Positions 6,683-38,580 of a stretch of 40,256 nucleotides of DNA are shown here, piece after piece; the stretch's first letter is position 1, and every line of letters begins with the position of its first letter. The translations under genes were made by a program, and so were the position numbers. Origin of the DNA: a virus; the IMG/VR virus record IMGVR_UViG_3300050192_000249, positions 1 to 40,256 of that record. One strand, given 5' to 3'. The notes under the pieces are model-generated. The model was not told the origin of the DNA, ran no database searches, and saw only the letters and a list, made by a program, of their open reading frames with translations.

Positions 6683-9600
6683 TCACGGCGGATCTTTACC
6701 GTGAGCCGCCCGTGCATCCGGCAGCTTGGCGAGGTCAATTGCGCCGCGGCATTCGGCGTGGGGACCTTGGGGAGGCGTTGGGGGAACCTGGTGGAGACGT
6801 TGTCGACCAAACGTCTCCACCGTTAAGTTGCCGTGCTTTGTGCCGGTTAGCGAGGCGGTGGAGACGTTGGGGACGTTTTCGCCATTTTCGGCGGTCCCCG
6901 CAGTGAGGTTTTCACGCGCTCTCCCTTCCAGGTCTGTATCCGGGCGGTCTTCTTGTGTTTTTTGCGCGCGAGCTTCTCTTGAAAGGTCTCCAAGGTCCCC
7001 CACGTCTCCACCGTCGCCGTAATCTGCTGAGTCTAAAGGCTCAATGTGGTGGAGACGTTGGTCGGGCAACGTCTCCACCAAGTCTCCACCAGCAGGGCAA
7101 ACGTCCCCACCGAGCGAATCCAGGAGGCTCAGGTTCCTCGAAGTAGGCCCACCTGGTTTGTCGCCATTCGCCGGGGTCAGAACATAAAGGACGCCTGTCT
7201 TATGATTGCTTTCGCCGACTCGCCTGACGGTAAGCCCGTTGAATACCCGATCACGCTTGACGCCGAGCGCCTTCCCCAGCCGGGTCTGTTGGGAGCGCTC
7301 CGATCCGTCACCTCGCACGGTGAGCATTAGATCCCGTTCTTCGCAAAACTTAGTCAGCTCGCTGACGCGCCTCGGCTCCTCCCGGTATGCTTCCCACCAT
7401 GCACCGGTGAATTCCCGCCATAGCTGGCCATCGCTGTCCGCCGCCGCATAGAGTTCGTTCAGATTGCCAAGGAAGCCGGGGATCTTCGCAACCTCCAGGA
7501 CGCCGCCCATCACCTCGGACCATTTCTCAAACGATCCCAAGCGCCTCGTGTGCAAGGGCCGCCCGGCGGCAATCCAGGCTTGGATCAACGTCAGTGCCGC
7601 GTGGACCAGCACCGAACGATTCGCCTTGGCCCACTCGGCGACCAGCGGATGTTTGAATCCGGCCCTCAGCCATGGCATGTCGATTCTGGGGTCAATACGA
7701 AGCCGGATACAGCGCCGGCTCATCTCATTTGAGAGTTGCGGATTATTGCCGGTCATCAGCCAAAGGGCATGGTTCTTAAGGTCCAGCATCCTGGTGATGC
7801 CGAGAATCCTGTCGGTCCAGGTGGGCTGGGTAACAACGGACGCCAGAGCGGAGGAATCCAGAACTCTCTTCTCGTTGAGATTATCGAGGAGGATCATGGG
7901 GCGGCCGGTGATCAGTTCCGCCGTGATCATCTTCCGGATATCGTCCTCGGCTTCCGGTAACGTGCGCCCTTCCGGGCCCGAACCGGTTGTGATGATGCCG
8001 ATCAGGCCGGCCAGCAAACCCTTCCCGGATCCCTGAGTGGGCGCCTCGATGAGGTGTATGGGAGAAAGGCCTTCGATCATGCGCTCCATGAAGGGCAGAA
8101 GGATTGCCGCCATCGCATGCGCCCGGTCCGAATCCCTCACGAACGGGAAGTCAACCAGCAGCTCATCCACCAGCAACGCTCTGGCGCGCGCGATCTGTTC
8201 TTCGCTTGGGTGGGTTGGGACTTCCCCAACATCCAGTGATGGGTCGGCGCACAGCCACAGGGCATCGTCGCGATGGTAACCAGGCTTAGATATGAGAACG
8301 CCGTCTCTTCCGAATGCCGGCGTGCGAACCACCGATTCCAACGGCGGCAACGTGAAATCCGGGTTGACCAGCATGTCGCGGGCGGTATCTCGCGACGGGG
8401 GCGCTGCAAGCACGGTCTCCTCGGTTATCTTGTGCCAGTTCGCGCTTCGAGCCAACATGCCGTACACCGCCGTCTCGCCGAGAGGCTCGATCTTCGTGCT
8501 CGCGCCGTCGCCGGCAATGCGCACAAGGGCGCCAGCTTTCTGGAAGAGGAATGGCTTGTCAGAGCTACCCGCTCCGGGGGGTTCGTTAATCGCATGAATC
8601 GCGCCCCAGGCATCGGCGATCACGTCACGCAACTGCCGGTTGTTGACCTGGATGCTTCGCAAGGGCGCGGGCTGTGGTTCGTCCATCAGCGCGGTTGCGG
8701 CTGCTCCTCTCCCTCCGCTACTGAATGCACCAGTCGGAGCCGACCTCCGTGGGCGGGCGATTTCCACCACTTTTAACTGCTTCCGTAACGTGGTGACCGG
8801 CATGCGGACCTTGCCACATCGCGTTTGGATCAGCCTGAGGTGCCGATCCTGTTCAATCGGATCGAGCCGGCCGACTTCCGAGAGGATCGGCTCGAGTAGT
8901 CGGCTGAGACCCGCATCCGGGATCTCGATATTGAGTTTCGAGATCGCCAGTTCGAGCGGGGTCTGCGCGGCCGCGAGGATGGCTTCGAAATCGGCTGCCG
9001 TCTTGCCGGACGCGAAGAACTCGTTGACGTCGATTTTGGCGTCGGCCAGTAGGTCGTCGGCTTCGGCGCTGCCGCCATGCAGACCGGCCAGCTTCTCACG
9101 TGCAGCCTGCTGCTTTTCGCCAAGAGGTAAAACGGCCACCCGTGTCGCGATTCCGTGCTGTGCCAGGATGCGCGCCGTTTTCAGCGCTCCCTGCATGCCG
9201 GCCTCCGAGATCTCGTTGTCCTGGCAGATGTAAACGGTCTTTACGCCGGCGAGTTTCGGCAGCAACCGTTCCCAGTCGGCCTCGCGGATCTGCACCGTCA
9301 CCGGCGACACCACCGGGAATCCGTGCTCCATCAGGGAAATGCAGTCCGTGACCCCTTCTGTGATGATGACCCGGTCCGGTTTTGACAGGAGCACGTCTTC
9401 GTTGTAGAGAACGTCGTTCCGGATGCACATCGAGACGTGGCTGTTGTTTCGGTCGTTGTGGATCGCCAGTTTCTTGTACTTCGACTTCTCCCATTCCTGA
9501 TCCGGCGTCCAAGGCGTGCGCCGTCCGATCATGAAGACGACGTGTCCGCGGCTCCAATATGGGAAGACGATCCGGCCATCGAAGAACGGGACCAGGCCGT

Positions 9601-10243
9601 CCTGCGCGGTGGGCCGGAAGACGGAAGTGGCTGCCAGTTCGCGCATGGTGAAGGCGCCGGGCCCGTCCATCAAAGCGCGCGCCACGCTGGGCGAGCCATT
9701 TTCCGCGTACCCGATCTGGAGCCGGCTGATCGTCTCCTCGCTGATCCCGTATTTCCCCCGAAACCAGGCGAGGACTTCCTGATTCCCGACCAAGCGCTGG
9801 TGATACACGTCTGCACACGCGGTTAGCGCCTCACGAATGCGAAGAGTAATTTGGTGAGCTTCCTCGGCTTCTTCCGGGCTGCCGGAAGCGAGCTTTGACA
9901 GCGGCGGCAGTCGAACGCGCGCAGCCAGGAAGTCGCGTGCCCGCCGGTGAGAATCCGGCATCGAGCCAGACTGCCCGCGAGTGACTACGCCGAACCGGAC
10001 GAACTCGACCAACTGCAGCACGTCGCCGCCGGTGCCGCAGGCGTGGCAAAACCAGCCCTGCTTGTCGCGCCAGACGTGAAGCGAACGGTGCGACTGGCTC
10101 CGGTGGTTCGGGCAATCGCAGAACAGGGTCTGCTGCGATTCCTGGGTGATACGGTCGCCGAGGAGTTCGCGGGCGATCTCTCCGATGTCCACATCGGTCA
10201 CCTGCCGGTAGTAAGTGTGGACATCTACCGGAGGCGCAGTCAC
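6683..10243 (-). CDS. Phage-type DNA primase (CHC2 zinc finger + Toprim) fused to a P-loop ATPase
   Basis: The 1186-aa protein begins with a primase zinc finger: C44, H47, C66 and C69 (CPNH and CHACG). A DnaG-like core follows, with the Toprim acidic motif ITEGVTD (E296) and the downstream Asp motif ICQDNE (D341), so it should make RNA primers. After a linker with Gly/Ala-rich sequence near residues 500-520, a second domain carries a Walker A motif APTQGSGKG at about residue 737 and an aspartate-rich strand ILLDNLN, consistent with a replicative ATPase/helicase. The final 130 residues are low in complexity and contain two copies of a VETL/VETF...QRLH peptide, encoded by palindromic DNA repeats. 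It overlaps the RecD2-like gene by four bases (ATGA), so the two are translationally coupled. It is the central replication protein of this element. Confidence 0.92.
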   Translation of the reverse strand: MTAPPVDVHTYYRQVTDVDIGEIARELLGDRITQESQQTLFCDCPNHRSQSHRSLHVWRDKQGWFCHACGTGGDVLQLVEFVRFGVVTRGQSGSMPDSHRRARDFLAARVRLPPLSKLASGSPEEAEEAHQITLRIREALTACADVYHQRLVGNQEVLAWFRGKYGISEETISRLQIGYAENGSPSVARALMDGPGAFTMRELAATSVFRPTAQDGLVPFFDGRIVFPYWSRGHVVFMIGRRTPWTPDQEWEKSKYKKLAIHNDRNNSHVSMCIRNDVLYNEDVLLSKPDRVIITEGVTDCISLMEHGFPVVSPVTVQIREADWERLLPKLAGVKTVYICQDNEISEAGMQGALKTARILAQHGIATRVAVLPLGEKQQAAREKLAGLHGGSAEADDLLADAKIDVNEFFASGKTAADFEAILAAAQTPLELAISKLNIEIPDAGLSRLLEPILSEVGRLDPIEQDRHLRLIQTRCGKVRMPVTTLRKQLKVVEIARPRRSAPTGAFSSGGRGAAATALMDEPQPAPLRSIQVNNRQLRDVIADAWGAIHAINEPPGAGSSDKPFLFQKAGALVRIAGDGASTKIEPLGETAVYGMLARSANWHKITEETVLAAPPSRDTARDMLVNPDFTLPPLESVVRTPAFGRDGVLISKPGYHRDDALWLCADPSLDVGEVPTHPSEEQIARARALLVDELLVDFPFVRDSDRAHAMAAILLPFMERMIEGLSPIHLIEAPTQGSGKGLLAGLIGIITTGSGPEGRTLPEAEDDIRKMITAELITGRPMILLDNLNEKRVLDSSALASVVTQPTWTDRILGITRMLDLKNHALWLMTGNNPQLSNEMSRRCIRLRIDPRIDMPWLRAGFKHPLVAEWAKANRSVLVHAALTLIQAWIAAGRPLHTRRLGSFEKWSEVMGGVLEVAKIPGFLGNLNELYAAADSDGQLWREFTGAWWEAYREEPRRVSELTKFCEERDLMLTVRGDGSERSQQTRLGKALGVKRDRVFNGLTVRRVGESNHKTGVLYVLTPANGDKPGGPTSRNLSLLDSLGGDVCPAGGDLVETLPDQRLHHIEPLDSADYGDGGDVGDLGDLSREARAQKTQEDRPDTDLEGRARENLTAGTAENGENVPNVSTASLTGTKHGNLTVETFGRQRLHQVPPTPPQGPHAECRGAIDLAKLPDARAAHGKDPP
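6791..7110. repeat. Cluster of GTGGAGACGTTG direct and inverted repeats inside the primase gene
   Basis: The 12-mer GTGGAGACGTTG occurs at 6791-6802, 6858-6869 and 7049-7060. Its complement occurs at 7067-7078, with variants at 6809-6820 (one mismatch), 7001-7011, 7079-7089 and 7099-7110. Two pairs make long hairpins: 6791-6801 with 6810-6820 (11-bp arms, 8-base loop), and 7049-7060 with 7067-7078 (12-bp perfect arms, 6-base loop). All lie within the last 430 bases of the primase reading frame. Iteron-like clusters in or next to initiator/primase genes can be replication origins; a protein-coding palindromic repeat is the other reading. Confidence 0.75.
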
Positions 10244-15162: not shown

Positions 15163-16203
15163 CTAAACTGCGCAGCGAGTGCCACCCTGAAAGGGATCGG
15201 GCGCGACCAGCCGTCGAATCCGCTTTCCGGCGTTGATGTGGTCCACGACGAGCCGGCTCAAGAGCCCGACACTCGATCCGCTGCAAGCCATTGCCCGGAC
15301 GTTGGGGTCGTTCAGTCCGAACTGGCCGATTTTCTTCTGCATGTCGCGGTCGATGCGGAGGCTCTTGCCGGACCAAAACGCTGGATATTCAGAGATCACG
15401 TCGGCTAGGGCGAAGAGAAAGGCCGACTTCAAGTGAGTGGCGCGGTCCTTGTAAAGGATCCCGCGGATACCCCACGCGCTGTCGAGGAGCTGAAAGAACG
15501 CCTTGACGTTCTCGATCATGGTGGAGTGCCCCACGGTGGACATCATGGGCGGCAGCGCCTGCCACATTCCGGAAACCACCCCGTAGCGGCCCGCCCCGAA
15601 TTGGGAATGAAGGCGCATTACCGTCTTCAGGAACGACAACGCCGTCATCAGTTCCTCGCGGCGCATGTACTGCGACCACGAGACCCGCTGGCACAGAACG
15701 AATGACTCATCGCGGCAGAGCTCGTAAAGGCGGCTGAGGGAGGGGCATTGCGCGGCCCGATTGCGCAGCAGGACGTTCGGGGAGAGCCGCGTCCTGCGCA
15801 TGTTCAGGATGGCGAAGCGCTCCCTTTCCCATTCCTCCGTGGTGCCGAAGTGAAGCATTGCGCCGACCAGCGGCTTGCCGCCGTCATCCACGAATTGCCT
15901 GGCGGCGCTGATCCGTTGGAGCCCGTCGATAATGTACACGTCACCGGCGATCGTGTAAGTTCCATCGGAGTCGGCGCATCCGTAACGGTCGCCACGGACC
16001 GCAAGTTCCACGTCGGGCACGCGCCCGGCGCCGTCGCGGAACGCCTTCATTAATCCCTCAATCGTGGCTTCCCGCAGCGTTTCGCGTTGATATTCCGGCT
16101 TTAGCAAGCCTCCCAGCGAGGCGGGGTCAATCACCCCGCGCAGCACGATCTGACCTTCTGTCAATTCGTCCAGTGCGCCGGACAGGACCTTCAGTGGCGT
16201 CAT
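15163..16203 (-). CDS. DGQQR/ParB-like domain protein, 346 aa
   Basis: Residues 35-130 resemble the ParB/DUF262/DGQHR group: PEYQR at 37-41, a phage-like strand region, then YIIDGLQRISAA at 90-101, followed by the helix ERERFAILNMRRTRLSPN. The rest is mostly helical with no recognised domain. In this fold the DG(Q/H)QR signature contributes to nucleotide binding or hydrolysis; here the motif is DGLQR, so activity is uncertain. The gene is coupled to the ParB-like gene upstream by an ATGA overlap. It may regulate or process DNA with its ParB-like neighbour. Function unproven. Confidence 0.7.
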   Translation of the reverse strand: MTPLKVLSGALDELTEGQIVLRGVIDPASLGGLLKPEYQRETLREATIEGLMKAFRDGAGRVPDVELAVRGDRYGCADSDGTYTIAGDVYIIDGLQRISAARQFVDDGGKPLVGAMLHFGTTEEWERERFAILNMRRTRLSPNVLLRNRAAQCPSLSRLYELCRDESFVLCQRVSWSQYMRREELMTALSFLKTVMRLHSQFGAGRYGVVSGMWQALPPMMSTVGHSTMIENVKAFFQLLDSAWGIRGILYKDRATHLKSAFLFALADVISEYPAFWSGKSLRIDRDMQKKIGQFGLNDPNVRAMACSGSSVGLLSRLVVDHINAGKRIRRLVAPDPFQGGTRCAV

Positions 16204-17069
16204 GATTTGTTCTCCTCAATTCCCAACCGGGATGCGTTCAGCGGATCGGCGGCAACCGCCTTCCGTTCGATTTCCGCGCTCACCGCGGCGACGGCTTCGT
16301 TGATGTTCGACAGCAGCAGTTCCGCCTGGTCAAATTCGCCAGCGATCTCGCCCAGCCAGCCGACCAGATGGGCGAGATGTTTTGTGGCTTCAATGAACGA
16401 GAGAGTCAATCGCGCTAAGCGGTCGATCTTTTCCGAACGCGTGATCCGGCCGGACGTGCGTCGAACAGGCGGGTTGTTGTCCGGATCGGCGGCTCTCGCC
16501 GGTGAGGAGCCCGCGTTTTGCGGCGGCTGCGGTGGTGCTGCATCCTGCGCCAATTCCGGCGTCTTGCCGATTTTGGCCACATTGATGGTCCGTCCGTCGC
16601 GCCCCTTGCGCTTGGTTGACTTCAAAACTTTTGGAGTGGCGTCTATCTGGCGCCGGTAATTGCGGACCATCTGATCGCTGACACCGACATGGACGGCTAT
16701 CTGACCGTCGCTCAGTCCTGCGCCACCTGGATGCTGAAGGGCCGACTTCACCGCCCGCTGCTTATCCTGATTCGTGCGGCGGAGTCCGTTACCCTTGTTC
16801 ACGCCGAAGCTGTACCACTGGGCGTCCTGCTGAGTCCCCTGATGCACTTCGCAAGCAATGTCGTCGCGGCCGGCCTTTTCCGCAGCGTTGATACGGTGGA
16901 AGCCATCGGCAAGCCAGTGGGTGCGGCCATCGTAGAAGACATCCACCGGCGGAAATTCCGCGCCGCTGTCCATGTCGTTCATGTAGTCGGATACGGTCTG
17001 GGGATTGATGGTCGCGCGCGGTTGGGTGCCGCCGTCGAGCCGGATGCTGGAGATGGGAAGACGTATCAT
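16200..17069 (-). CDS. ParB-like DNA-binding protein
   Basis: The 289-aa product starts with a ParB N-terminal-like domain: RLPISSIRLDGGTQPR, then FPPVDVFYDGRTHWLADGFHRINAAEKAG at residues 39-67, where ParB proteins carry the GHRR-type motif. A helix-turn-helix follows near residues 117-140 (LSDGQIAVHVGVSDQMVRNYRR). The middle is Pro/Ala-rich and probably disordered, and the C-terminal 90 residues are helical, probably for oligomerisation. Phage-borne ParB-like proteins can act in partition or as transcription regulators. It overlaps both neighbours by four bases, so it is tightly coupled to the sigma-like gene upstream and the DGQQR protein downstream. Confidence 0.85.
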   Translation of the reverse strand: MIRLPISSIRLDGGTQPRATINPQTVSDYMNDMDSGAEFPPVDVFYDGRTHWLADGFHRINAAEKAGRDDIACEVHQGTQQDAQWYSFGVNKGNGLRRTNQDKQRAVKSALQHPGGAGLSDGQIAVHVGVSDQMVRNYRRQIDATPKVLKSTKRKGRDGRTINVAKIGKTPELAQDAAPPQPPQNAGSSPARAADPDNNPPVRRTSGRITRSEKIDRLARLTLSFIEATKHLAHLVGWLGEIAGEFDQAELLLSNINEAVAAVSAEIERKAVAADPLNASRLGIEENKS

Positions 17070-17632
17070 CGGGCAACCCCGCAGTCCCCCGGCGCGAAGC
17101 CTGCCGCCATGAACGCCGCGCGAATTTGTCTGATCCGCCGATTCACCCGGGCCAGTGAAAGCCCGGTCTTCCGTCGCACGGCCGATACGGGCATCTCGGC
17201 GAGATACCGGGCGATCGTTCGCAGATCCTCCGGCAGCCCGGCGAGGACACGCTCCGTGTCGAGGCCAAGTTCCAGGAGCGGGCGGAAGTCCTCTGCCGGC
17301 TCCTCATCTGCTTTGCCGGTCAAACTGCCGTCCGGCAGTTCGGAGTCGCCGTCGAATTCCACCGGTTGGAACTGCCGGCGTTGAAGCTGCCGCGATGCCA
17401 AGACGCAGGCGTGGTTGCGAACGACGCCGTGGACGAAACCTTTCCAGCTCCCGCGCGATCCGTCGAACCGGGGCAGGCGCCTGAGGCAGTCCAGTGCCAG
17501 ATCCTGCCGGAGATCATCCCAATCATCCGCGGCGAATCCGAAGCTCGTTTGCAGAAGGCTGGCCCGCAGCGCCGTCTGCTGGAGCAGGTACGGAGTGACA
17601 TCAGCCAGGGGTATGGCCACCGCCGGCATCAT
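17066..17632 (-). CDS. Sigma-70 family (ECF-like) sigma factor
   Basis: The 188 residues fit a small two-domain sigma factor. Residues 35-85 resemble region 2 (DDLRQDLALDCLRRLPRFDGSRGSWKGF by position 37-64, then VVRNHACVLASRQLQRR). After an acidic linker, residues 128-178 resemble region 4: LPEDLRTIARYLAEMPVSAVRRKTGLS followed by a basic recognition-like helix VNRRIRQIRAAF. It would direct RNA polymerase to element-specific promoters, perhaps the leftward genes further down, or genes outside the window. No anti-sigma gene is recognised, but the two small proteins upstream in the operon are candidates. Assignment rests on pattern, not a full alignment. Confidence 0.7.
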   Translation of the reverse strand: MMPAVAIPLADVTPYLLQQTALRASLLQTSFGFAADDWDDLRQDLALDCLRRLPRFDGSRGSWKGFVHGVVRNHACVLASRQLQRRQFQPVEFDGDSELPDGSLTGKADEEPAEDFRPLLELGLDTERVLAGLPEDLRTIARYLAEMPVSAVRRKTGLSLARVNRRIRQIRAAFMAAGFAPGDCGVAR

Positions 17633-22842: not shown

Positions 22843-23250
22843 TCAGGCTAAGTGATTGTCCTGCTTAAGTTTACGCCACAACTCCCGTTGCTCAGTCCAT
22901 TCAAATTCCGTGGCGATGCGCCGCGCGGCCACCTCGCTGACCGGGAAGTGCGGCTTGGCCGTGGGCGGGAATTCCAGGATCTCCTGTTGTATGTCCGGGG
23001 CGAGCCAGACCAGTTCCATGATCTGGCTCATCCGCTCACGAGTCAGGCATCCAAGACGGGCGAGGTCGGCGTAGTCCCGCGATTCGCCACGCCGTATCAT
23101 GTCCTGAAATTGGATGGCTAGTGCCATCACCTGCGCCACTCTCGGCAGACGCCCGACGGCATGCCGCCGGATGTCCTTTGGCAATTCCTCTTCGGGTAGC
23201 GTCGGGGCGGCGTTCAGCCGAAATTGAATTTCAACCGCGCTTTTGTGCAT
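22843..23250 (-). CDS. Accessory protein of the recombinase cassette, 135 aa
   Basis: The product starts MHKSAVEIQFRLNAAP, overlaps the recombinase gene end by 20 bases, and is likely co-translated. Residues 40-90 contain a probable helix-turn-helix (AIQFQDMIRRGESRDYADLARLGCLTRERMSQIMELVWLAPDIQQ by position 44-88), where YADLARLGCLTRERMSQIM has the spacing of a HTH. The C-terminal part is basic and helical. Small HTH-like proteins accompany many large serine recombinases with DUF2924. It probably helps control or direct recombination; the role is inferred from context. Confidence 0.75.
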   Translation of the reverse strand: MHKSAVEIQFRLNAAPTLPEEELPKDIRRHAVGRLPRVAQVMALAIQFQDMIRRGESRDYADLARLGCLTRERMSQIMELVWLAPDIQQEILEFPPTAKPHFPVSEVAARRIATEFEWTEQRELWRKLKQDNHLA

Positions 23251-24835
23251 GCTCGTATTTCTCCTTGATGGCCGGTGCCCAACTGCAAAGGTCCTTGATC
23301 CCGCTGGATCGGAAGCCGAGTGTCACCGTGCCCGTCTTGCCGTCGTATCGGACCTGCTCTACCAGCGTGTGAATGAACCGCTCCTGTTCCCATGTCGAGA
23401 GTTGCTCCCACAGTGGATCGAACGCATGTAACGCCGTTTCGAGATCCCTGGGATCGGTCGGCTCCGCGCTGACTCCTTCCAACTGTTGCTGGAGTTCCGA
23501 CAACCGTGCGCGCAGGCGGTTCGCGCGTTGCTCCAGGTCAGCGGGAGGTCTTGTGACGGACCCGCCATCGCCCACCGAACCTGCGCCGCCGATCTCGTCT
23601 CCGACCTTCTGCAACTCGCGCGCGACGTCGGCCTTTTCCTTCGATGCCGCCAAAGCATCCTGGCGGCGGTGCTCCTCAATCTGCCGGAGGACGTTTCGCA
23701 TGATTGTAGGGTTGGCGCCGATGCCACGAAGTTGTTGCAGGACGGCGCTCTCCAGTGCCGGGGCCGACACGCAGCGCGTTTCGCACTGGGCCCAGCCCCG
23801 CTGATGCGCCCTAACGCATACATAGTAGCGATAGACCCGCGTCTTCTTCTGGACATAGGTGTGGATCATGCCGACATCGCAGGTGGCGCACCGCACGAGA
23901 CTCTTCAGCAGCGCACCATGTTTGTTGCCGATATTGCGTCCTCCGTGCCGCCCGTTGCGATTGAGGGTCGTCTGCACTTGGTTCCAGATTTCGTCGTCGA
24001 CGATCCGGGCGTGCTCGCCCTCGTACACCTCGCCGCCGTACTTCACCTTGCCCAGGTAAATCATGTTGGTGAGCAGGTTGTACAAATTGTTCTTGGCGAT
24101 CGGTTTTCCGCCCGCTATCCGGCCGTCGCGTGTGGTCCATTCTTTCATTCGCGACCCGCGGCGCTCGAGTTCTTCCACCACCGGGATCAGCGAGCCCAAC
24201 TCGAGGTAGAGCGCAAAGATCTCCCGCACGCGCTGCGCCTCTGCCTCATTCACCACCAGCGATCCGCCCTTCGGTGCAACATCGTAGCCAAGGACAGGGT
24301 TGCCGCCTACCCACTTTCCTTTGCGCCGTGCGGCGGCCATTTTGTCGTGCGTGCGTTCGGAGATCATCTCGCGCTCGAACTGGGCAAATGAGAGCAGGAT
24401 ATTAAGAGTCAAGCGGCCGAGGGATGTGGTCGTATTGAACTGCTGGGTTACCGACACGAACGTCGCGTTGTTCTTGTCGAGGATTTCGATGATCCTGGAG
24501 AAGTCCAACAGGGACCGTGTCAGGCGATCGACTTTGTAGACCACCACGCAGTTCGCCACCCCGGATTCCACATCGGCCAGCAGTCTCTTCAGGGCGGGCC
24601 GGTCCATGTTGGCTCCTGTGTAGCCGCCGTCATCATACTTCTGTGGCAGCGTGACCCACCCTTCGTGCCGTTGGCTGTTGATGAATGCCTCGCCGGCGTC
24701 GCGCTGTGCGTCGAGTGTATTGAATGCCTGTTCGAGGCCTTCCTCCGTCGACTTTCTGGTGTAGATGGCGCAGCGGACGGATGGATGGCCGCCGGTGCCA
24801 TTGCCGTTTTCCTTCTGCCGTTTCTCAGGACGCAC
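23231..24835 (-). CDS. Large serine recombinase (zinc-ribbon type)
   Basis: The 534-aa product has a resolvase/invertase catalytic domain beginning CAIYTRKSTEE, with the nucleophile Ser at residue 29 in the Y-x-R-x-S context, then CVVVYKVDRLTRS and the SFAQFEREMISERTHDKMAA E-helix. The recombinase domain follows (LYNLLTNMIYLGKVKYGG), then a zinc ribbon (RCATCDVGM...YYVCVRAHQRGWAQC) and a coiled coil at about residues 400-470. Such enzymes integrate and excise phages and islands. The GTG at 24835 is chosen because GGGAGG precedes it by six bases and it overlaps the DUF2924 stop by 11 bases; upstream ATGs lack a ribosome site. It probably mobilises the element of regions A-B. Confidence 0.93.
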   Translation of the reverse strand: MRPEKRQKENGNGTGGHPSVRCAIYTRKSTEEGLEQAFNTLDAQRDAGEAFINSQRHEGWVTLPQKYDDGGYTGANMDRPALKRLLADVESGVANCVVVYKVDRLTRSLLDFSRIIEILDKNNATFVSVTQQFNTTTSLGRLTLNILLSFAQFEREMISERTHDKMAAARRKGKWVGGNPVLGYDVAPKGGSLVVNEAEAQRVREIFALYLELGSLIPVVEELERRGSRMKEWTTRDGRIAGGKPIAKNNLYNLLTNMIYLGKVKYGGEVYEGEHARIVDDEIWNQVQTTLNRNGRHGGRNIGNKHGALLKSLVRCATCDVGMIHTYVQKKTRVYRYYVCVRAHQRGWAQCETRCVSAPALESAVLQQLRGIGANPTIMRNVLRQIEEHRRQDALAASKEKADVARELQKVGDEIGGAGSVGDGGSVTRPPADLEQRANRLRARLSELQQQLEGVSAEPTDPRDLETALHAFDPLWEQLSTWEQERFIHTLVEQVRYDGKTGTVTLGFRSSGIKDLCSWAPAIKEKYEHAQKRG

Positions 24836-25337
24836 GCCGCGCCTCCCGGTCCAGGCCAAAAAAGGCAAAGCCATTCCAGCGCGCGCCTGTGATCTCGCAA
24901 GCGATGGCGCTGAGCGAGGTGAACCGGCGGCCCTCGAATTCGAAGCCGCTATCAAGAACTTTCACCACCAAAGTCCGGTCCTTGTACTTCCTCACGATCA
25001 GGCTGCCCGGCATTGGCAGTCGGCCATCTCGAGGTTGGACCACCGTGGTCGTCACCGCCATGTCCAGCGGAATTTCCCGCAACCGCCTCGACACGTTGTC
25101 GGCGATGCGCATCCGCAGGTCCGCCTCACGGGCTATCGCGATGGCATGCTGCCGCACCGATTCCGGAAGCCCGCCTTCCTTATCTGCCTGGATGTGCCAG
25201 GCGATCTTCCGCCGCAAATGCTGGCAGTTCGAAACCGGATGTTCCGCCCCGAACATCAGGCGATGTGTCGCCTGCAACTGCGCCGCGTTCAATCTCGGCA
25301 GGTCCGAAACCCTCGGCAGTATCCACTCCTTGCTCAT
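24825..25337 (-). CDS. DUF2924 family protein
   Basis: The 170 residues match the DUF2924 pattern: a helical N-terminus (LPRLNAAQLQATHRLMFGAEHP), then LRRKIAWHIQADKEGGLP, and a conserved C-terminus PGSLIVRKYKDRTLVVKVLDSGFEFEGRRFTSLSAIACEITGARWNGFAFFGL by position 108-160. This family is found next to serine recombinases in phages and islands, but its biochemical role is unknown. The ATG at 25337 overlaps the preceding stop (TAATG), and the gene's end overlaps the recombinase start, so the three genes are a coupled cassette. Confidence 0.9.
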   Translation of the reverse strand: MSKEWILPRVSDLPRLNAAQLQATHRLMFGAEHPVSNCQHLRRKIAWHIQADKEGGLPESVRQHAIAIAREADLRMRIADNVSRRLREIPLDMAVTTTVVQPRDGRLPMPGSLIVRKYKDRTLVVKVLDSGFEFEGRRFTSLSAIACEITGARWNGFAFFGLDREARRAS

Positions 25338-26400: not shown

Positions 26401-27972
26401 ATGGACAAGACCGGACCGGCATCTTCAGACCCACAGCGCGTCGAACCCGGTCGAGGCCGGGCGGCAGAATACGTCCGGATGTCCACCGAGCACCAGCAGT
26501 ACTCGACGGAGAACCAAAGGGACGTGATTCGTCAGTGGGCAGAAAAGCGCGGTGTTACAATCGCGCGCACTTACGAGGACGCCGGGAAGAGCGGACTACG
26601 AATAGCCGGCCGCGATGCGTTGCAGCGCCTGATCGAGGACGTCCAGGCCGGTCGCGCGGATTTCGATGTGATCCTCGTCTATGACGTGAGCCGCTGGGGG
26701 CGCTTCCAGGACGCCGACGAGAGCGCCTACTACGAGTACATCTGTCGGAGGGCCAACGTTGGCGTCCAATACTGCGCCGAGCAATTCGAGAATGATGGCA
26801 GCGCGATTTCCACGATGCTGAAAGGCTTTAAGCGATTCTCTGCCGGCGAATATAGCCGCGAGCTTTCCGTGAAGGTGTTTCACGGCCAATGCCGGCTTGT
26901 TGAATTGGGCTTCCATCAGGGCGGCGCGCCTGGTTTTGGGCTTCGCCGCATGCTCCGAGACCAGAGCGGACAGCCGAAAGGCGTCTTGGCTCGGGGCGAG
27001 CATAAGAGTATCCAGACCGATCGCGTGGTCCTCGTCCCAGGCCCACCGGAAGAAATTGAGATTGTCCGGTGGATGTACCTGGCATTCGTGGAAGAGGGCA
27101 AAATTGAATCGGAAATCGCCAAAGTACTGAATGGGCGCGGCGTGCAGACCGATCTCGGCAGGGCGTGGACGCGCGGTACAGTCCATCAGGTGCTGACCAA
27201 TGAAAAGTACGTCGGCAACAATGTCTATAACCGAATTTCGTTCAAGCTCAAAAAGAAACGGGTGCTCAACCCCGCAGACATGTGGATCAGGGCCAACGGT
27301 GCGTTCGAACCGGTCATTTCTGCGGAGTTGTTTGAGGGAGCCCAGAAGATTGTTCTGGAACGCAGCAAGAAGCTCGCAGATGAAGAACTGTTAGAGCGAT
27401 TACGCGCGCTCCTGGCCGAGAAGGGGAACTTGTCTGGGTTGCTCATCGACGAAACGGAGGACATGCCGTCCAGCTCCGTTTATAAAAGCCGGTTCAGCAG
27501 TCTCGTGAGGGCCTATCGTCTGATCGGCTACACGCCGGACCGTGATTACGCCTTCATTGAAATCAACCGCCAGCTTCGCCAGTTGCATCCCCAAGTCATT
27601 ACTGAAATGGTTGAACGCATCACGCGCCTCGGTGGCGTTGTCGTTCAAGATCCGAAGACCGACCTGCTCACTGTGAATGGCGAGTTTACGGTATCCCTGG
27701 TTGTCGCGCGGTGCCGACGGACGGAGTCAGGTTCTTTGCGGTGGTCCATTCGCCTCGACACCGGACTGGCGCCAGACATCACCGTCGCAGCGCGGATGGA
27801 CGAGGAAAACAAGGCGCCCCTCGATTATTACCTGCTTCCCGCCATCGACATCACTCCGGGGAAGCTCCTGCTTGCGCAGGACAATGGGGTCGGCTTGGAC
27901 ACGTACAGGTTCGAAACGTTGGACTTTTTCTTTGGCATGGCGCAACGCGCCAGAATCCGAGAGGCAGCATGA
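26401..27972 (+). CDS. Serine recombinase without zinc ribbon
   Basis: The 523-aa product has the resolvase-type catalytic domain: RAAEYVRMSTEHQQYSTENQ with the catalytic Ser at residue 28, then VILVYDVSRWGRFQD in the position of the conserved VxxxDRLxR segment, and an E-helix. The recombinase domain includes VLTNEKYVGNNVYNR near residue 265. Unlike the recombinase at 23231-24835, it lacks the Cys-rich zinc ribbon and instead ends in a 150-residue domain of unknown type. It heads an operon with two ParB-like genes, the first overlapping it as ATGA. It probably moves this cassette, and perhaps the BREX operon to its right. Confidence 0.93.
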   Translation: MDKTGPASSDPQRVEPGRGRAAEYVRMSTEHQQYSTENQRDVIRQWAEKRGVTIARTYEDAGKSGLRIAGRDALQRLIEDVQAGRADFDVILVYDVSRWGRFQDADESAYYEYICRRANVGVQYCAEQFENDGSAISTMLKGFKRFSAGEYSRELSVKVFHGQCRLVELGFHQGGAPGFGLRRMLRDQSGQPKGVLARGEHKSIQTDRVVLVPGPPEEIEIVRWMYLAFVEEGKIESEIAKVLNGRGVQTDLGRAWTRGTVHQVLTNEKYVGNNVYNRISFKLKKKRVLNPADMWIRANGAFEPVISAELFEGAQKIVLERSKKLADEELLERLRALLAEKGNLSGLLIDETEDMPSSSVYKSRFSSLVRAYRLIGYTPDRDYAFIEINRQLRQLHPQVITEMVERITRLGGVVVQDPKTDLLTVNGEFTVSLVVARCRRTESGSLRWSIRLDTGLAPDITVAARMDEENKAPLDYYLLPAIDITPGKLLLAQDNGVGLDTYRFETLDFFFGMAQRARIREAA

Positions 27973-30338: not shown

Positions 30339-30548
30339 ATGGAAAGCCGTTGGCTGTCAGTCGATGAAATCGCAGAGTACCTCGGTGTGAGCCGGGATAC
30401 AGTTTACCGGTGGATTGAAGGGCGTGGCTTTCCTGCCCACAAGGTGGGACGGTCCTGGAAATCAAAGGTCGCCGAGATCGACGAGTGGGTCAAGTCCGGC
30501 GGCGGTGCGGAGAAAGAGCCCAACGCACATGAGGGGGCACAGGAATAG
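30339..30548 (+). CDS. Small excisionase/MerR-like HTH protein, 69 aa
   Basis: The 69 residues contain a winged-HTH of the excisionase/HTH_17 type: WLSVDEIAEYLGVSRDTVYRWIEGRGFPAHKVGRSW, given here as residues 5-40, followed by a basic-to-acidic tail. Proteins of this type bind DNA as excisionases or simple repressors. Its stop lies one base before the brxA start, so it is the first gene of the BREX operon and probably its regulator. Many BREX loci instead carry a WYL-domain regulator at this position. It could also be an excisionase left by the adjacent recombinase cassette. Confidence 0.8.
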   Translation: MESRWLSVDEIAEYLGVSRDTVYRWIEGRGFPAHKVGRSWKSKVAEIDEWVKSGGGAEKEPNAHEGAQE

Positions 30549-30549
30549 G

Positions 30550-31362
30550 ATGGGGATTCTCGGCGGCATGACGCCTGACATTGGACTAATCCCCGTGGTG
30601 CCCGGTTTGGATCCCCGCATCCCGTATTCGTCGCGGCTGTCTGCCCGGTCGGCCATGTTCACAGATCTGCTGCTTCTGTTGGATGATCGCCCTGAGCCGC
30701 TCCTTTCAGAACAGTACCGAAATCTCGTCGTCGAGGAGAATGCTCTGAGCCGGTCCTCAACCGCCGCAAGGCGCAAGGTATGGGCGGAACTCAGAGGGCG
30801 CTATCTGTTGGACCGGCGCCGGGCTCTTTACGACGCGTTTTGGAGCGAGTGGCACCGCTCAAAGTCCGATCCGGAGCGCGGGCTCACTGCTTACGTACTG
30901 CTGGCATTGAACGACCGCCTCGTGGCTGACTTGGGCAGTCAGTGGCTCTACGCTTACCTCCGCCGAGCGCCTGCGGAGCTTCGGGTCGAAGACGTCCGGA
31001 GCTTTATCCGGCGCGCCGGCGAAGCGGGTCACCCGGAGGTGAGGGCCTGGACGGAGGACACCCAACATCACATCGCACAGCACTATATGGCGAGTATTCG
31101 TGACTTCGGGCTGGCGCGGGGCAAGAGCAAGAAAACGAGTCTGCGCCCAGCGTTATACGGTGCACCCGTAAGGCTCCTCGTGCGGGCACTGCGTTTGGCG
31201 CGCGTCAACGATCTTGAGATCGTAACCTCCCCTGTCTTTCGACTACTGTCCCTTGAAGGCGCCGAAGTGATTGATGCGTTGGGCGAACTGAATCAGCAAG
31301 GCGAGCTCCGATTCCGCATGCAGGGTGACGTGGTCGAACTCGAAATCGGAGGTGAGGAGTAA
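30550..31362 (+). CDS. brxA: BREX protein BrxA (DUF1819)
   Basis: The 270-aa product is assigned to BrxA (DUF1819) from its position directly before brxB and brxC and from its pattern: an N-terminal segment PYSSRLSARSAMFTDLLLLL, a helical Arg-rich middle (ARRKVWAELRGRYLLDRRRALYDAFWSEW, by residue 70-100), and the later segment ARGKSKKTSLRPALYGAPVRLLVRALRLARV followed by winged-helix-like sequence. BrxA binds DNA in studied BREX systems. The ATG at 30550 has AGGA six bases upstream; an ATG at 30568 is a less likely alternative. Its stop overlaps the brxB start (TAATG). Confidence 0.85.
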   Translation: MGILGGMTPDIGLIPVVPGLDPRIPYSSRLSARSAMFTDLLLLLDDRPEPLLSEQYRNLVVEENALSRSSTAARRKVWAELRGRYLLDRRRALYDAFWSEWHRSKSDPERGLTAYVLLALNDRLVADLGSQWLYAYLRRAPAELRVEDVRSFIRRAGEAGHPEVRAWTEDTQHHIAQHYMASIRDFGLARGKSKKTSLRPALYGAPVRLLVRALRLARVNDLEIVTSPVFRLLSLEGAEVIDALGELNQQGELRFRMQGDVVELEIGGEE

Positions 31363-31901
31363 TGCAGGCTTTCTTCTCGGCGCTGCTTGAGCTCATCAGG
31401 GAACCGCTCCGGCCGAATGGCGGCGTGAAGACCGACAGCTCGATCCTCCTGATCTATCCTCCCGAGAAAGAACTGGATTTCCGGGAGTACCTTCTGGATG
31501 CCTTCGTTCCGCAATTGAAGGCCGAGGGCGTTCCGTTCCGATTGCTGGACTTGGCGGGATTTCTATTCGAAGGACTCACCGAGGAGACGATCCAGAATCT
31601 CCAGGAAGACGAGTTTGACGACTACCGGTGGATGAAGCAGGGCCTGTCGACAACCGTGGAGGCCGCCTTGCGCAAGCGCATCTCCCAACTTGCCGAGGAG
31701 TCGCCCGGTTGCGCGGTCATCGTGTACTCCACCGTCGCTCTGCATCCACTGGTGCGTTTTGGCGAGGTCCTTCGCGAGCTTCGGGACGTGCAGTGCCGCA
31801 CCGCGTTGGCTTTTCCCGGCGAGGAGCGCGGCGGAAAGCTTCATTTCATGAACCAGCCGGATGGCGGCAATTACCTCGCGGTGAAGTTGTTCTGGAAATA
31901 G
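31362..31901 (+). CDS. brxB: BREX protein BrxB (DUF1788)
   Basis: The 179 residues match BrxB (DUF1788): SSILLIYPPEKELDFREYL near residue 25, VPFRLLDLAGFLFE, FDDYRWMKQGLS, then VIVYSTVALHPLVRFGEVLRELRDV and the family's typical end FPGEERGGKLHFMNQPDGGNYLAVKLF (residues about 148-176). BrxB is needed for BREX activity in studied systems, but its biochemical role is not well defined. It is coupled to brxA by the TAATG overlap, and brxC starts 15 bases after its stop. Confidence 0.92.
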   Translation: MQAFFSALLELIREPLRPNGGVKTDSSILLIYPPEKELDFREYLLDAFVPQLKAEGVPFRLLDLAGFLFEGLTEETIQNLQEDEFDDYRWMKQGLSTTVEAALRKRISQLAEESPGCAVIVYSTVALHPLVRFGEVLRELRDVQCRTALAFPGEERGGKLHFMNQPDGGNYLAVKLFWK

Positions 31902-31916
31902 CGGGAAGGGCTCACA

Positions 31917-34900
31917 ATGACGATTCGCGAAATCATCAAGAGAGATATCGGCGTAAAGATCGAAGGCGTCGTGAAGGTCTTCGACCGCGCGGCTTTAGCC
32001 TCCGAGTTCCGGGAGTACGTCGTCACGGACAAGATCGAGGATGAGCTCAAGAGGATCTTCGATACCTTCACCCAGGTCAGCGACACCCTGCGCCGGGGCG
32101 GCCGCCCTCGCGACGTCATGGGGATGTGGGTTTCGGGGTTCTTTGGGTCCGGGAAATCTCACTTCGCCAAGGTCCTGGGATACCTCCTGCAGAATGAAGA
32201 CCTCGGCGACGGTTCCGGTGAGCGTTGCATTGATGTCTTTCTGAAGCATCTGTCCGATACGCCACGCGGGCGGGATATCCGGCTTCGCCTGGGAGAAATC
32301 AAGCAGACGACGCAGATCAGAACCTTGGCCTTCGAGATCCGCAGCCGACAAGCCTTGAACAATCCCTCGTCGGTAGGTGAGATCCTGCTGGGCGAGTTCT
32401 ACCGGAGCATGGGGCTTTCCGAGAACTTCATCGTGGCGCGGATAGAGCGTCGGCTGGCCCGACGCAACCTGCTCCCCGCACTGGAGGCCGCGTACGCCTC
32501 CACATTCGGCATCCCGTGGAAGAGTGCGGAGGGCCGCGACGACTTGATGACGGTTCGGCGACGGCTCGCCGACATCCTGCCGCGGATCGACAAGGCTGAG
32601 TGGCAGGATGTGCGGGAGGCCAAGAAATCGCTCGACGATGCATTCCGCCACGAGAAGATCACTGCGGAGGGGATCGCCGACGAACTGGTCGCGTGGGTGG
32701 ATGAGCAGAAGCTCACCGGCGGAAAAGTGCAGCATCTGGTCTTCGTCGTCGACGAGATGGGCTCCTTCATCGGCGATTCCGGAGACAAAATCTCCGAGGT
32801 CAACAGCCTGGCGGAGATGATTGGCAACAAGGGCAAAGGCAAGGTGTGGATGATTTGCACCAGCCAGTTGGACCTGGAAAAGGTCGTTGATCGCACCAAC
32901 TTCCAGCCTGCTTTGGTCGGCCGCCTCAATGCGCGTTTCGAGCTGAAGCCACAGCTCATTTCCGATGAGATCAACAAAGTTGTTGCAGAGCGAATCCTGA
33001 AGAAGCACCCATCCGAGGAAGGAAAAGTGCGCGCCCTTTATCAGGAAGGCTACCTTGCGCAACTGGCCGACCTGAAGGCGAGCCGCCACCTCGGCACGCT
33101 CTCGGAGCGGGCGTTCATCGATTGCTATCCCTTGCTGCCGCATCAGATTCGCCTGGCCCAGGACATCTTCGAGGCGATTGCCGGCTTCCGCGTTTCCGGC
33201 GGCGTGCGGTCCATGATTACGGTCGTCATGGAAGCGCTACAGGATGTGGCTGACGACGAACTCGGGTCCATCGTCAGCTTCGACATGATTTTCGATGCCG
33301 TAGAGAACGATCTTCTGTCGCAGGAGTACCTTGGCGCCTCCGGCGTTCGTTCGATTCGCGAGTCGTTTGAACGTGTCCCAGGCACACCCATCGATCCCGC
33401 GCGCATTCTCAAGGTTCTTTGGCTGCTACAAAAGGTCGCCTGGGTACCGCGCGTGCCGGAGACTCTCGCGAAATTGCTGGTGCGCGACCTGAAGACTGAG
33501 ATTCCGCCGCTCCGCGAAAAGGTGGAGCAGACCCTCGACAAGCTTCAGGAAGCCGGCTACGTGGCGCGCGACGAGGCCACGGGCGAGTGGAAGTTCCTGA
33601 ACGAGAAAGAGCGCACCATCGAGCAGACCATCCAGGAGATGGTGCGGCCAGGAGGACCAAAGAGCATCAGCGTCGCCGCCGTGCGCCGGACATCCCAGGA
33701 GATGGCCAAGACCGACCTGGTCACGAAACGAAAACTCGCAAACTTCACGGTTGCCCATGGCGTAACGAAGGCCACGTTCCCTTACGGCGTCTACTTGGAT
33801 GGCGAGGCTGTCGAAACCGGCTCGGAGCTGGAGGTGCACTTCGTTGGGCCGCTGGCTCCGGGGCGTAAGCAGACTATCGACGAAATCCGGCGACAGAACC
33901 AGGCCGCCGGCGCGAAAGGGCGACGGGTCTGTTGGGCGGCCGCAACTCCCGAGAATCTTGAGACGCGGTTCAAACGGTACGAAGCGCTTGTCAAAGTCAC
34001 GTCCGACAAGCGCTTCACGGAAGACAGCTCCGCCGACACGCAAGACGCACTTTCGGAGAAGCGGAAGGAACGCGACGACCTCCGAACAGCGCTGGTAAAG
34101 GACCTGGAGAAATCATTCCTCGCGGGAACGCTGTTCTATGGCGGCCAAGAGCTAGAACTCGACGGAGTAACGGACTTCAAGGAGCCCGTCCAGACTGCCC
34201 TCAGCGCCGTTATCCCGAACATCTACGCGAGTTTCGGCGTTGGAGACCGTGCCTGTGACTTCGGCAGGCAACTGAAGGCTGTCCTCAATCCGGCGATTTC
34301 CACATTGCATACAGTTGCCCCAGAATTGGATTTGTTCGACACCCAAGGCAGTCTGCAGCAGCAATCCGCGCTGGTGTCGCAAGTGCTGGAGGTGATCTCG
34401 GATCTTGAGGATGAGGATGTCGACCCAGCCGGGTCCATCCTTCTCGAAGCGCCAGATCGCAAGGGCTTCCGAGGCTTCGAGCGTCCACCCTTCGGTTGGT
34501 CCAGTGAACTCGTGCGCCTGGTCCTGGCGGCCTGCTTCCGCGCCGGAGCTATCTATGTTGAGCGTCCCACGCCGTCCGGACCCGCGCCCCTATACGACTA
34601 CAAAGACTCCCACGATCTCTTTGCCAAGATCAACACCTTCAAACACGTCACGTTTCGAGTGGCGGAAACCCGTCTCTCCGTGGACCAGATCAAGCGCGCC
34701 AACAAAGAGCTGATAGCCATGGGCGTGACCGGTACCCCTGAGTCCGGGAACGCGATCGCGGCCGCCGTGCGGAAGTTGGGGGAAGGTCTGAAGGCAGGGA
34801 TACAGGAAGCAAAAGCTCACGCGGATCGCGGCCTTCCCATCCGAGATGCCGTGCTGGGAGGCGCCGCAGCGCTCGCGGAGCCGACCACGGCAAAAGACCC

Positions 34901-35642
34901 TACGAAGGTTGTGACCGCCTTCCTGTCCCACGCTGAAGAGTGGAAGTCCCTGAACCTCTCGCTGGAGGCGCTGCGGGCGTTTCTCGCCGACCAGCGTCAC
35001 CACGAGTACGACACCTCACGCCGCATCGCGGATCTCGCCACCAACCATCCCGTTGACTCGAATCACGGCTCGCAGGCTTTATTAGAGCGGTCGCTGAGGG
35101 ACATGGAAGCGATTATCGCAGAGAAGTCGGTGGTGGAAAGGTGGTCTGACTACCGCCTCGCCTACGACAACGCGCACCGGGCGTATCGGGACGCCTACCG
35201 CGACGCCTACACACAGGTCCAACAAGAAACAGAGCGCGTGGCGTCTGCGATCAGGAGCGGTGCCGCTTACAAGGCAGCGCCGCCGGCAGCGCGTGACAGT
35301 GTGGTTGACAAGGTCTTCGGTGCGGGTGGGCCGTGCCATTATCCTTCCCTGTCGCTGGGTTCTGCCTCGTCACTACTGGACGCTGCTGCGAAGCGTAGCC
35401 TCAGTTCGCTGGCCCAGGCACTGGTAGCGATGCCTGGATACCAGGCGCAGATCGAAACCGACCTTCGCGCACTGACGGTCCCGCCGCCGGCGCCTGGGGA
35501 GAAGTTGTGGGAGTGGCGCCCGGCTTCGGTGCTGGCCGGCCAGCGTTTCCAGAAGGAAACGGAGGTTGATACGGCGCTCCAGCAGGCGGGCGATCAGATT
35601 AAGGCCCAAATCCGCCAGGGATACACGGTGGTGGTGAAGTGA
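31917..35642 (+). CDS. brxC: BREX ATPase BrxC
   Basis: The 1241-aa protein is a BrxC/PglY-type ATPase of normal size. It begins TIREIIKRDIGVKIEGVVKV and has Walker A GFFGSGKS at residues 74-81 and a Walker B strand LVFVVDEMG at about 273-281, followed by SQLDLEKVVDRT. The rest is largely helical with no known catalytic motif. BrxC is an AAA-type ATPase required for phage exclusion and host DNA modification in BREX systems. The ATG is preceded by GGAAGGG. Its stop overlaps the GTG start of the pglX first half, keeping BREX genes translationally linked. Confidence 0.95.
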   Translation: MTIREIIKRDIGVKIEGVVKVFDRAALASEFREYVVTDKIEDELKRIFDTFTQVSDTLRRGGRPRDVMGMWVSGFFGSGKSHFAKVLGYLLQNEDLGDGSGERCIDVFLKHLSDTPRGRDIRLRLGEIKQTTQIRTLAFEIRSRQALNNPSSVGEILLGEFYRSMGLSENFIVARIERRLARRNLLPALEAAYASTFGIPWKSAEGRDDLMTVRRRLADILPRIDKAEWQDVREAKKSLDDAFRHEKITAEGIADELVAWVDEQKLTGGKVQHLVFVVDEMGSFIGDSGDKISEVNSLAEMIGNKGKGKVWMICTSQLDLEKVVDRTNFQPALVGRLNARFELKPQLISDEINKVVAERILKKHPSEEGKVRALYQEGYLAQLADLKASRHLGTLSERAFIDCYPLLPHQIRLAQDIFEAIAGFRVSGGVRSMITVVMEALQDVADDELGSIVSFDMIFDAVENDLLSQEYLGASGVRSIRESFERVPGTPIDPARILKVLWLLQKVAWVPRVPETLAKLLVRDLKTEIPPLREKVEQTLDKLQEAGYVARDEATGEWKFLNEKERTIEQTIQEMVRPGGPKSISVAAVRRTSQEMAKTDLVTKRKLANFTVAHGVTKATFPYGVYLDGEAVETGSELEVHFVGPLAPGRKQTIDEIRRQNQAAGAKGRRVCWAAATPENLETRFKRYEALVKVTSDKRFTEDSSADTQDALSEKRKERDDLRTALVKDLEKSFLAGTLFYGGQELELDGVTDFKEPVQTALSAVIPNIYASFGVGDRACDFGRQLKAVLNPAISTLHTVAPELDLFDTQGSLQQQSALVSQVLEVISDLEDEDVDPAGSILLEAPDRKGFRGFERPPFGWSSELVRLVLAACFRAGAIYVERPTPSGPAPLYDYKDSHDLFAKINTFKHVTFRVAETRLSVDQIKRANKELIAMGVTGTPESGNAIAAAVRKLGEGLKAGIQEAKAHADRGLPIRDAVLGGAAALAEPTTAKDPTKVVTAFLSHAEEWKSLNLSLEALRAFLADQRHHEYDTSRRIADLATNHPVDSNHGSQALLERSLRDMEAIIAEKSVVERWSDYRLAYDNAHRAYRDAYRDAYTQVQQETERVASAIRSGAAYKAAPPAARDSVVDKVFGAGGPCHYPSLSLGSASSLLDAAAKRSLSSLAQALVAMPGYQAQIETDLRALTVPPPAPGEKLWEWRPASVLAGQRFQKETEVDTALQQAGDQIKAQIRQGYTVVVK

Positions 35643-37717: not shown

Positions 37718-38580
37718 GCAGCATCCGGTGGCGCTGGGAGGAGAAGGATTTTGGGTTTCGCTTCCGGAGTGGCACGGGAAAGAACAGGGGAGAATTCTAC
37801 CAAGCCTCGATTCCAGGTGAGTTCTACATCATTCCACCCAGTCAGCGGAAGGTGTCGAAGGACAGGTTGGAGCAACTCGAATCTGACGCGAAGATACCCA
37901 CGTCGCCCAAGGTCGTCGCAAATCCCTGGCAGGATTATCACCTTGGGTGGGACTGGGTCAAAACAGCAGACGGCATCTGTCTCAATTACGCTGGCTGCCT
38001 CCACCAAGAGGAGATCAATCGCCGCGAGGACGAAGGAGTGGCTAGAGCCATGGGATTTGTCGCGGCTTTACTGGATCGATCGGAGCCTTCTCCTATCACC
38101 GTCCCGCTAATCCGGCAGATCCACACCGAGCTAATGGGCGAAATTTATCCTTTCGCGGGCGAATGGAGAACGGTTGCATTGCACAAGGGCGAAGGCCCAA
38201 CGAAGTGGCCCCTGCCCATCGGTGGGATCGAACCTGTAGTGGAGGTTTATCAGCGCGATGTCCTAAGTCGGACACCGTTGCTGAATGCCGACAACGATTC
38301 GATCTACGACTTTTGCAGTGAGGCGATGAATGAACTTCTCGCTATTCATCCATTCCGCGAGGGAAATGGTAGAGCTGCCTTCATCTTAGGTAATTTCATC
38401 CTCATGCAGAACGACCTGCTTCCGCTTGATATCTATGACCAGCGTCGGCATCAGGAGGCGTACTATTCAGCTTGTGAGGCCGGACGACTTCACAAGGATT
38501 ACAGGCCATTAGCGGACCTGATCGCGGAATGGGAAGAGGATGCACTTGGTCGGTGGGAGGAAACGAATGGCAGGGAGTAG
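37714..38580 (+). CDS. Fic-domain protein (probable AMP-transferase toxin) inside pglX
   Basis: The 288-aa product has the Fic fold signature. The flap region is MGEIYPFAGEWRTVALHKGEG near residues 145-165, and the active-site loop is HPFREGNGRAAF at 212-223, giving catalytic His212, phosphate-binding Glu216 and Arg220. In canonical Fic enzymes (HPFxxGNGRxxR) a second Arg closes the motif; here it is Phe223. Fic enzymes usually transfer AMP to a target Ser, Thr or Tyr and can halt growth. The first 95 residues match no family I know. The N-terminal LHQEEINRREDEG has no Ser/Thr at the start of an inhibitory motif, so inhibition is probably by a separate antitoxin. It starts with TTG and overlaps both pglX halves (4 and 14 bases), so dosage should be tied to theirs. 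Confidence 0.9.
   Translation: MSSIRWRWEEKDFGFRFRSGTGKNRGEFYQASIPGEFYIIPPSQRKVSKDRLEQLESDAKIPTSPKVVANPWQDYHLGWDWVKTADGICLNYAGCLHQEEINRREDEGVARAMGFVAALLDRSEPSPITVPLIRQIHTELMGEIYPFAGEWRTVALHKGEGPTKWPLPIGGIEPVVEVYQRDVLSRTPLLNADNDSIYDFCSEAMNELLAIHPFREGNGRAAFILGNFILMQNDLLPLDIYDQRRHQEAYYSACEAGRLHKDYRPLADLIAEWEEDALGRWEETNGRE

Follow-up and report, generated by a model that had tools for sequence, protein, structure and literature searches.

An iteron array at the 3′ end of a phage primase-helicase gene: a probable replication origin embedded in the gene of its own initiator

Replication origins located within the coding sequence of their initiator are uncommon, though not exceptional; oriV of repABC lies inside repC, and pAD1 is organised likewise (PMC3155836). 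In the lambdoid phages, the iterons of the initiator are located within the O gene itself, so that changes in the iterons alter the protein (PMC7466680). The pri-rep-ori modules of PICI/SaPI carry their origin immediately 3′ of the initiator, and one of their helicases, SaPI5 PriRep1, is known structurally (PDB 7ola; PMC6092414). For pWTY27, a plasmid of Streptomyces sp. Y27 (NC_013667), repAB and the iteron constitute the basic replication locus, replication is bidirectional, and RepA binds the iteron region adjoining its gene, as shown by EMSA and footprinting (PMC3583192). In PLE, RepA_N and the origin function as cognate pairs only (PMC8263062). A search of the literature returned a few such precedents of in-gene origins, nothing for DUF3987 together with iterons, and nothing for PriRep1.

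The DNA analysed here (the window) is the IMG/VR virus record IMGVR_UViG_3300050192_000249, 40,256 bases in length. It encodes a primase-helicase of 1186 residues (6683–10243, minus strand) which, judged from the open reading frame and its translation, Pfam/PHROG matches, an AlphaFold model and Foldseek, consists of a CHC2/Toprim primase, an SF3-type helicase, a winged helix and a low-complexity tail. The primase half (residues 37–375; 9119–10135, minus strand) contains a CHC2 zinc finger, DnaG-N and Toprim, with Pfam matches to DNAG_N (4.9e-7), Toprim_2 (4.2e-6) and Zn_ribbon_DnaG (4.9e-5, just below the cut-off). The C-terminal half matched no convincing Pfam family, and searching the sequences of the PDB with a profile of the helicase gave nothing significant, which is why folds were compared instead. 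In the AlphaFold model (pLDDT 90.2) a winged helix comes after an ATPase domain, and the nearest solved folds found by Foldseek are those of poxvirus D5/E5, ASFV PrimPol, NrS-1 and SaPI5 PriRep1. Because the whole-chain TM-scores to D5/E5, SaPI5 PriRep1 and ASFV PrimPol are modest (0.34–0.43, E about 1e-7), the assignment to SF3/D5 is one of fold class; at that level the helicase half is modelled as an SF3 AAA+ fold (residues about 562–955; 7379–8560, minus strand) with a winged helix at its end (residues 957–1024; 7172–7375, minus strand), recognised by the order of its helices and strands. Two ParB-like proteins are encoded, along with a weak sigma-factor-like match, in a stretch that lies upstream of the genes for replication (15163–17632, minus strand). 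BREX-like defence genes (matches to BrxA, BrxB, BrxC and PglX) and a PDC-S04/Fic-like match occupy 30415–38580 (plus strand); they adjoin phage-type replication genes and two large serine recombinases (23231–24955, minus strand; 26401–27972, plus strand).

Within the last 400 bases of the primase-helicase gene lies a repeat array. A sequence-only reading of the window had noticed about eight copies of a repeat there, with two hairpins of 11–12-bp stems; the repeats and both hairpins stand, while the numbers had to be revised to ten copies of the 9-bp core TGGAGACGT with at most one mismatch (6792–7109, counted in the gene tail) and to stems of 14 and 12 bp. Further degenerate outer copies lie at 6727–6778. 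That the cluster is real can be seen from GTGGAGACGTTG, of which there are four exact copies and ten with at most two mismatches, all in 6758–7110, compared to a mean of 4.1 for the whole window in dinucleotide shuffles (maximum 11); the whole 40-kb window holds 18 such matches. Exact copies of the repeat are, in the 40,256-base record, confined to the tail of this gene. As had been noticed, both palindromes are read in one frame of the 1186-residue protein, as VETLPDQRLHH and VETFGRQRLHQ.

What had been overlooked is that the repeats form a single dyad-symmetric array of about 340 bp (6759–7109, delimited by inverted-pair, motif-count and symmetry analyses and by site mapping) around a site-free centre. 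In the sense of the gene, a palindromic pair is followed by about 40 bp, tandem 9-bp sites, a spacer of about 100 bp and then the mirror image. On the helicase side, the outer sites TGGGGACGT (7101–7109) and TGGAGACTT (7080–7088) are both on the minus strand (7080–7109). They precede the first palindromic pair (7047–7080), whose perfect 14-bp arms (7047–7060/7067–7080) contain sites at 7050–7058 (plus) and 7069–7077 (minus), and two inner tandem sites in 9-bp register at 7002–7010 and 6984–6992 (together 6984–7010, minus strand). Beyond the spacer (6877–6983) follow the inner tandem sites of the other half, 6868–6876 and 6859–6867 (6859–6876, plus strand), the second palindromic pair (6790–6821) with perfect 12-bp arms (6790–6801/6810–6821) and sites at 6792–6800 (plus) and 6811–6819 (minus), and two degenerate outer sites with two mismatches each, 6770–6778 and 6759–6767 (6759–6778, plus strand). 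Altogether about 12 putative binding sites are present, ten close and two to three degenerate; they are found on both strands and in all three reading frames. Judged from the window alone the symmetry is only suggestive, six of eight sites being paired with a null maximum of six.

The closest match among the described systems is pWTY27. Its RepA is homologous to the helicase encoded in the window (tblastn E 1e-43, 31.8% identity over query residues 562–1013), and an array of the same dyad order, [+ + −][+ +] spacer [− −][+ − −], is located beside the 3′ end of repA. Counted from the stop codon, the sites map to 51+, 62+, 78− / 118+, 127+ / spacer / 199−, 208− / 248+, 264−, 275−; the published footprint (record positions 405–509) corresponds to the inner sites plus the spacer. 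Unlike the array of the window, that of pWTY27 is noncoding and lies downstream of the stop, its iteron is GTGGGAAC, the residue equivalent to position 987 (see below) is Arg, and the primase/polymerase is a separate gene. The PICI modules share with the window a helicase of related fold and the location of the (here proposed) origin, and here, too, two sets of iterons flank a candidate melting region at the 3′ end of a pri-rep gene, only that they are embedded in it. PICI origins, however, are noncoding, their spacer is AT-rich and their carriers are satellites; the likeness claimed is one of fold and origin organisation. The lambdoid origin resembles the window in that the iterons of the initiator lie within its gene, but O is not a helicase, and its four to six iterons are found beside an AT-rich tract in the middle of the gene instead of in a two-sided array at the 3′ end. 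The origin inside repC is likewise within initiator coding sequence, but lacks iterons, and its initiator is unrelated. In PLE, the DNA-binding domain of the initiator and the iteron origin covary, as they do here; there, whole modules are swapped, while the family of the window has undergone recurrent switches of single bases and single residues, with mixed words in some arrays.

Scans turned up relatives both in viral contigs and among genomes; of the genomic ones, the closest lie mostly in Acidobacteria assemblies of the Solibacter/Bryobacterales type. Most of the 105 unique loci have an array near the end of the helicase gene; 95 arrays, comprising unique loci and seven named plasmid and viral records, were characterised. 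About 90 relatives share the layout, and the word differs from array to array (for example TGGGGACGT, GGGGAACGT, TGGGGATGT, TGGGGACCT and GTCGGGATCT). The symmetry is clear in them: 12 of 13 sites in one locus (L007; null maximum 7) and 10 of 10 in pWTY27 (null maximum 6). Sites within one array are 0.939 identical, and between arrays with different words, sites in the same slot are no more alike than sites in different slots (0.738 versus 0.736), which means that the array turns over in concert, as expected for the sites of one protein. Phages, plasmids and an archaeal virus alike have the array next to the gene of the helicase. In L020–L029, a module swap, the primase half is unchanged, the helicase is VapE-like, and a two-sided array of the GACTGGAACA type directly follows the stop; since these relatives with the same primase half have a different word, the compared sequences indicate that the array travels with the helicase module. 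The arrays of L020–L029 are probably another set of unannotated origins. No array was detected near the helicase gene in some members of the family, such as L043, L137, L139, L141, L148 and L146; the latter two, phiCbK and RpAliso, are large Caulobacter and Ruegeria phages with homologous helicase genes.

The distance between winged helices predicts the distance between iteron words when the helicase is controlled for (partial Mantel 0.49, permutation p 0.001), whereas helicase distance does not when the winged helix is controlled for (−0.17). This makes the winged helix the candidate iteron-binding domain. Within its recognition helix (residues 982–995), covariation points to Thr987 (codon 7283–7285, minus strand) as the residue which may specify base 3 of the iteron, numbered in the register A-N-N-T-C-C-C-C. 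Where base 3 is G, residue 987 is Thr (Ser in L017), and where it is not, the residue is Ile, Val or similar. In the combined loci, from which some with unclear register and L082 were omitted, all 127 are concordant (91 with G and Thr/Ser, 36 with neither). All 13 pairs representing independent switches agree as well (sign test p 0.00024); they were taken from branches with good support in a tree from which the winged helix had been left out. In the first set, of 71 loci, the register was set manually on the basis of consensus sequences as printed; in a fresh set of 83 viral loci with automatic register, all 56 readable ones were concordant (51 G/Thr, 5 A/Ile). Predictions for held-out loci were fixed before the residues were read, and within the family the predicted residues were found; the prediction of Thr for proteins of the pWTY27 group failed, the distant Streptomyces plasmids having Arg or Asn. 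One locus, L082, has a mixed array of eight ACGT and six ACAT sites with Ile at position 987; it and three others with mixtures of words (L085, L088 and L089) appear to be arrays in the midst of conversion. In L072, L080, L248 and L277, base 3 is C (ACCT) and is accompanied by Ala, possibly a third letter of the recognition code. Helicase residues at a distance from the winged helix share mutual information with position 8 of the iteron, a signal that is probably phylogenetic.

The central spacer, where unwinding is proposed to occur, exceeds the helicase region in AT content in 72 of 79 arrays; in the window (AT about 0.45) it is moderately richer, not strikingly AT-rich. Related spacers contain alternating purine-pyrimidine tracts, the longest run averaging 19 bases versus 6.5 in shuffles, and the window has a weak one of 8. 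In loci such as L129, L057, L100 and L105, tracts of 20–33 bases, prone to form Z-DNA, are placed at the dyad centre; where the array is coding, spacer tracts encode ACARAHAH-like peptides.

Two explanations start from the coding sequence. Selection could act on a repetitive protein tail as such, the DNA pattern being its by-product, which would agree with the way these tails behave: of 43 indels within genes, 36 have a length divisible by three, compared to 11 of 54 in noncoding arrays (these counts, like those by codon position, are only descriptive, because the compared pairs are partly dependent on one another and repeats of 9 bp make indels of that length likely), and related tails close with conserved peptides, either IDLADF-like or W-L-x-x-V-P. 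In the window this end is IDLAKLP (6719–6739, minus strand), encoded past the array and resembling the IDLA-D/K-F/L-like ends of related tails. L130, L131 and L077, which are homologues devoid of the tail, have SSB-like acidic C-terminal tips (DVDDEAPF, DDDDSPF and EPEEELPF). Synonymous recoding of the tail, however, reproduced the repetition in none of 2000 trials; one 9-mer occurs seven times, the maximum in recoded tails being five with the codon usage of the gene body and four when the tail's own synonymous codons were shuffled. Codon position matters in the spacer, which changes at a rate of 0.207 at third positions versus 0.13, while iterons change slowly at all three (0.074, 0.053 and 0.074). 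Arrays also persist where there is no tail: in a tree of 93 helicase loci they lie inside the gene in 70, straddle the stop in 5 and follow it in 18 (some of these assignments are manual, stray matches having stretched the span), with at least 11 changes of state, at least six of them forced by starred branches. In L017 the iteron TAGTCTCCA itself provides the stop codon, and the array continues beyond it. Another locus straddling the stop, L018, was not relied on as a natural truncation because its gene is frame-broken. Homologues that keep the peptide without the DNA repeats, which the sequence-only reading had named as the sign of a by-product, were not seen; instead, the repeats are kept despite an altered peptide or an early stop. 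With the recoding nulls, the spread over strands and frames, the noncoding arrays and L017, the protein repeat was rejected as sole cause and is very improbable. Frame-keeping indels, slowly changing iterons and conserved end peptides indicate constraint on both layers: on the DNA as a set of sites, and on the protein at least in so far as the frame stays open and its end is conserved. The other coding explanation, a palindromic element that spreads through ORFs in the manner of the Rickettsia palindromic elements, had been raised because of the two in-frame palindromes and their similar peptides. It is the least credible of all; the record holds no dispersed copies, and in five Acidobacteria genomes the 12-mer occurs 1–8 times per genome, its scattered copies being at chance level, and is clustered only in G001 and G002, which have an array of the same word. 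Dispersal over unrelated ORFs was seen neither in the record nor in the five genomes, homologues hold other words at the same sites, and arrays exist in noncoding DNA as well; a dispersed element was therefore rejected.

Two further explanations accept the array as a set of protein-binding sites and differ in its purpose. In many plasmids, iterons have a part in control besides their part in initiation, and the array could be an operator or copy-control locus at which the initiator represses its own operon or couples replicons (handcuffing), initiation taking place elsewhere. That the array sits where the gene ends, and not in a promoter region, counts in favour of this reading, but such a 3′ location is ill-suited to promoter repression; the symmetric two-sided layout with its central spacer fits initiation, and an array of the same shape is part of the basic replication locus of pWTY27 (PMC3583192). 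This reading is improbable, though less so than the others. The array could also be a partition or other site for a different protein, such as the ParB-like proteins encoded at 15163–17069, and be located in the primase gene by chance. ParB-like proteins are indeed encoded in the window, but the words track the helicase's own winged helix beyond helicase lineage, the array keeps its place next to that gene whether the carrier is a phage, a plasmid or an archaeal virus, and RepA of pWTY27 itself binds its own array (PMC3583192), which makes this reading very unlikely.

An iteron-type origin inside the primase gene, also proposed by the sequence-only reading, is strongly supported by the comparative evidence and by the homology to pWTY27 RepA. 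We put the probability at roughly 85% that the cluster is the replication origin of the phage, an array of sites for the helicase of the same gene whose winged helix would read TGGAGACGT, with Thr987 specifying one base; a bidirectional origin of the PICI/pWTY27 type embedded in the initiator gene is the best explanation for what is observed directly, namely the array, its symmetry and concerted turnover, the link to the helicase module, the covariation of residue and base, and the retention of frame. From these, we infer binding, melting, ring loading and bidirectional initiation for this phage, binding and replicon activity having been published for the homologue pWTY27. In such a scenario, the winged helix with which the SF3/D5-like helicase ends would read the 9-bp iterons, Thr987 in the recognition helix determining one of their bases; helicase molecules on the mirror-image half-arrays might load as two opposed rings and open the spacer of about 100 bp between them, whereupon the attached Toprim primase would prime bidirectional replication. 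The origin DNA would at the same time encode the linker that joins the winged helix to the short conserved C-terminal peptide. For the family at large, a fair likelihood is assigned to the more general proposal that in a large family of phage primase-helicases a bidirectional origin is overprinted on the 3′ coding part of the gene itself, selection acting on both layers, and that a code of Thr987-G, Ile/Val-A and perhaps Ala-C has switched many times, all 10–16 overlapping sites being converted in concert.

Origins within initiator genes (lambda O, repC, pAD1) are already known, as are origins with iterons on two sides that adjoin helicases of this kind (PICI, pWTY27); new, as far as the searched literature shows, are their combination, its breadth, the dual constraint and the recognition code. 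The same origin organisation accompanies a helicase family that has no model in Pfam; its carriers are phages associated with Acidobacteria, plasmids of Streptomyces and an archaeal virus, and in many of them it is hidden in the gene, where annotation does not look. The location of the proposed origin can be found and its word read from sequence alone. The switches, at least 13 of them independent, may be regarded as documenting in nature how the specificity of an initiator and that of a dozen of its sites shift in parallel, and the covariation makes directly testable how the word of a multi-site origin can change without loss of function.
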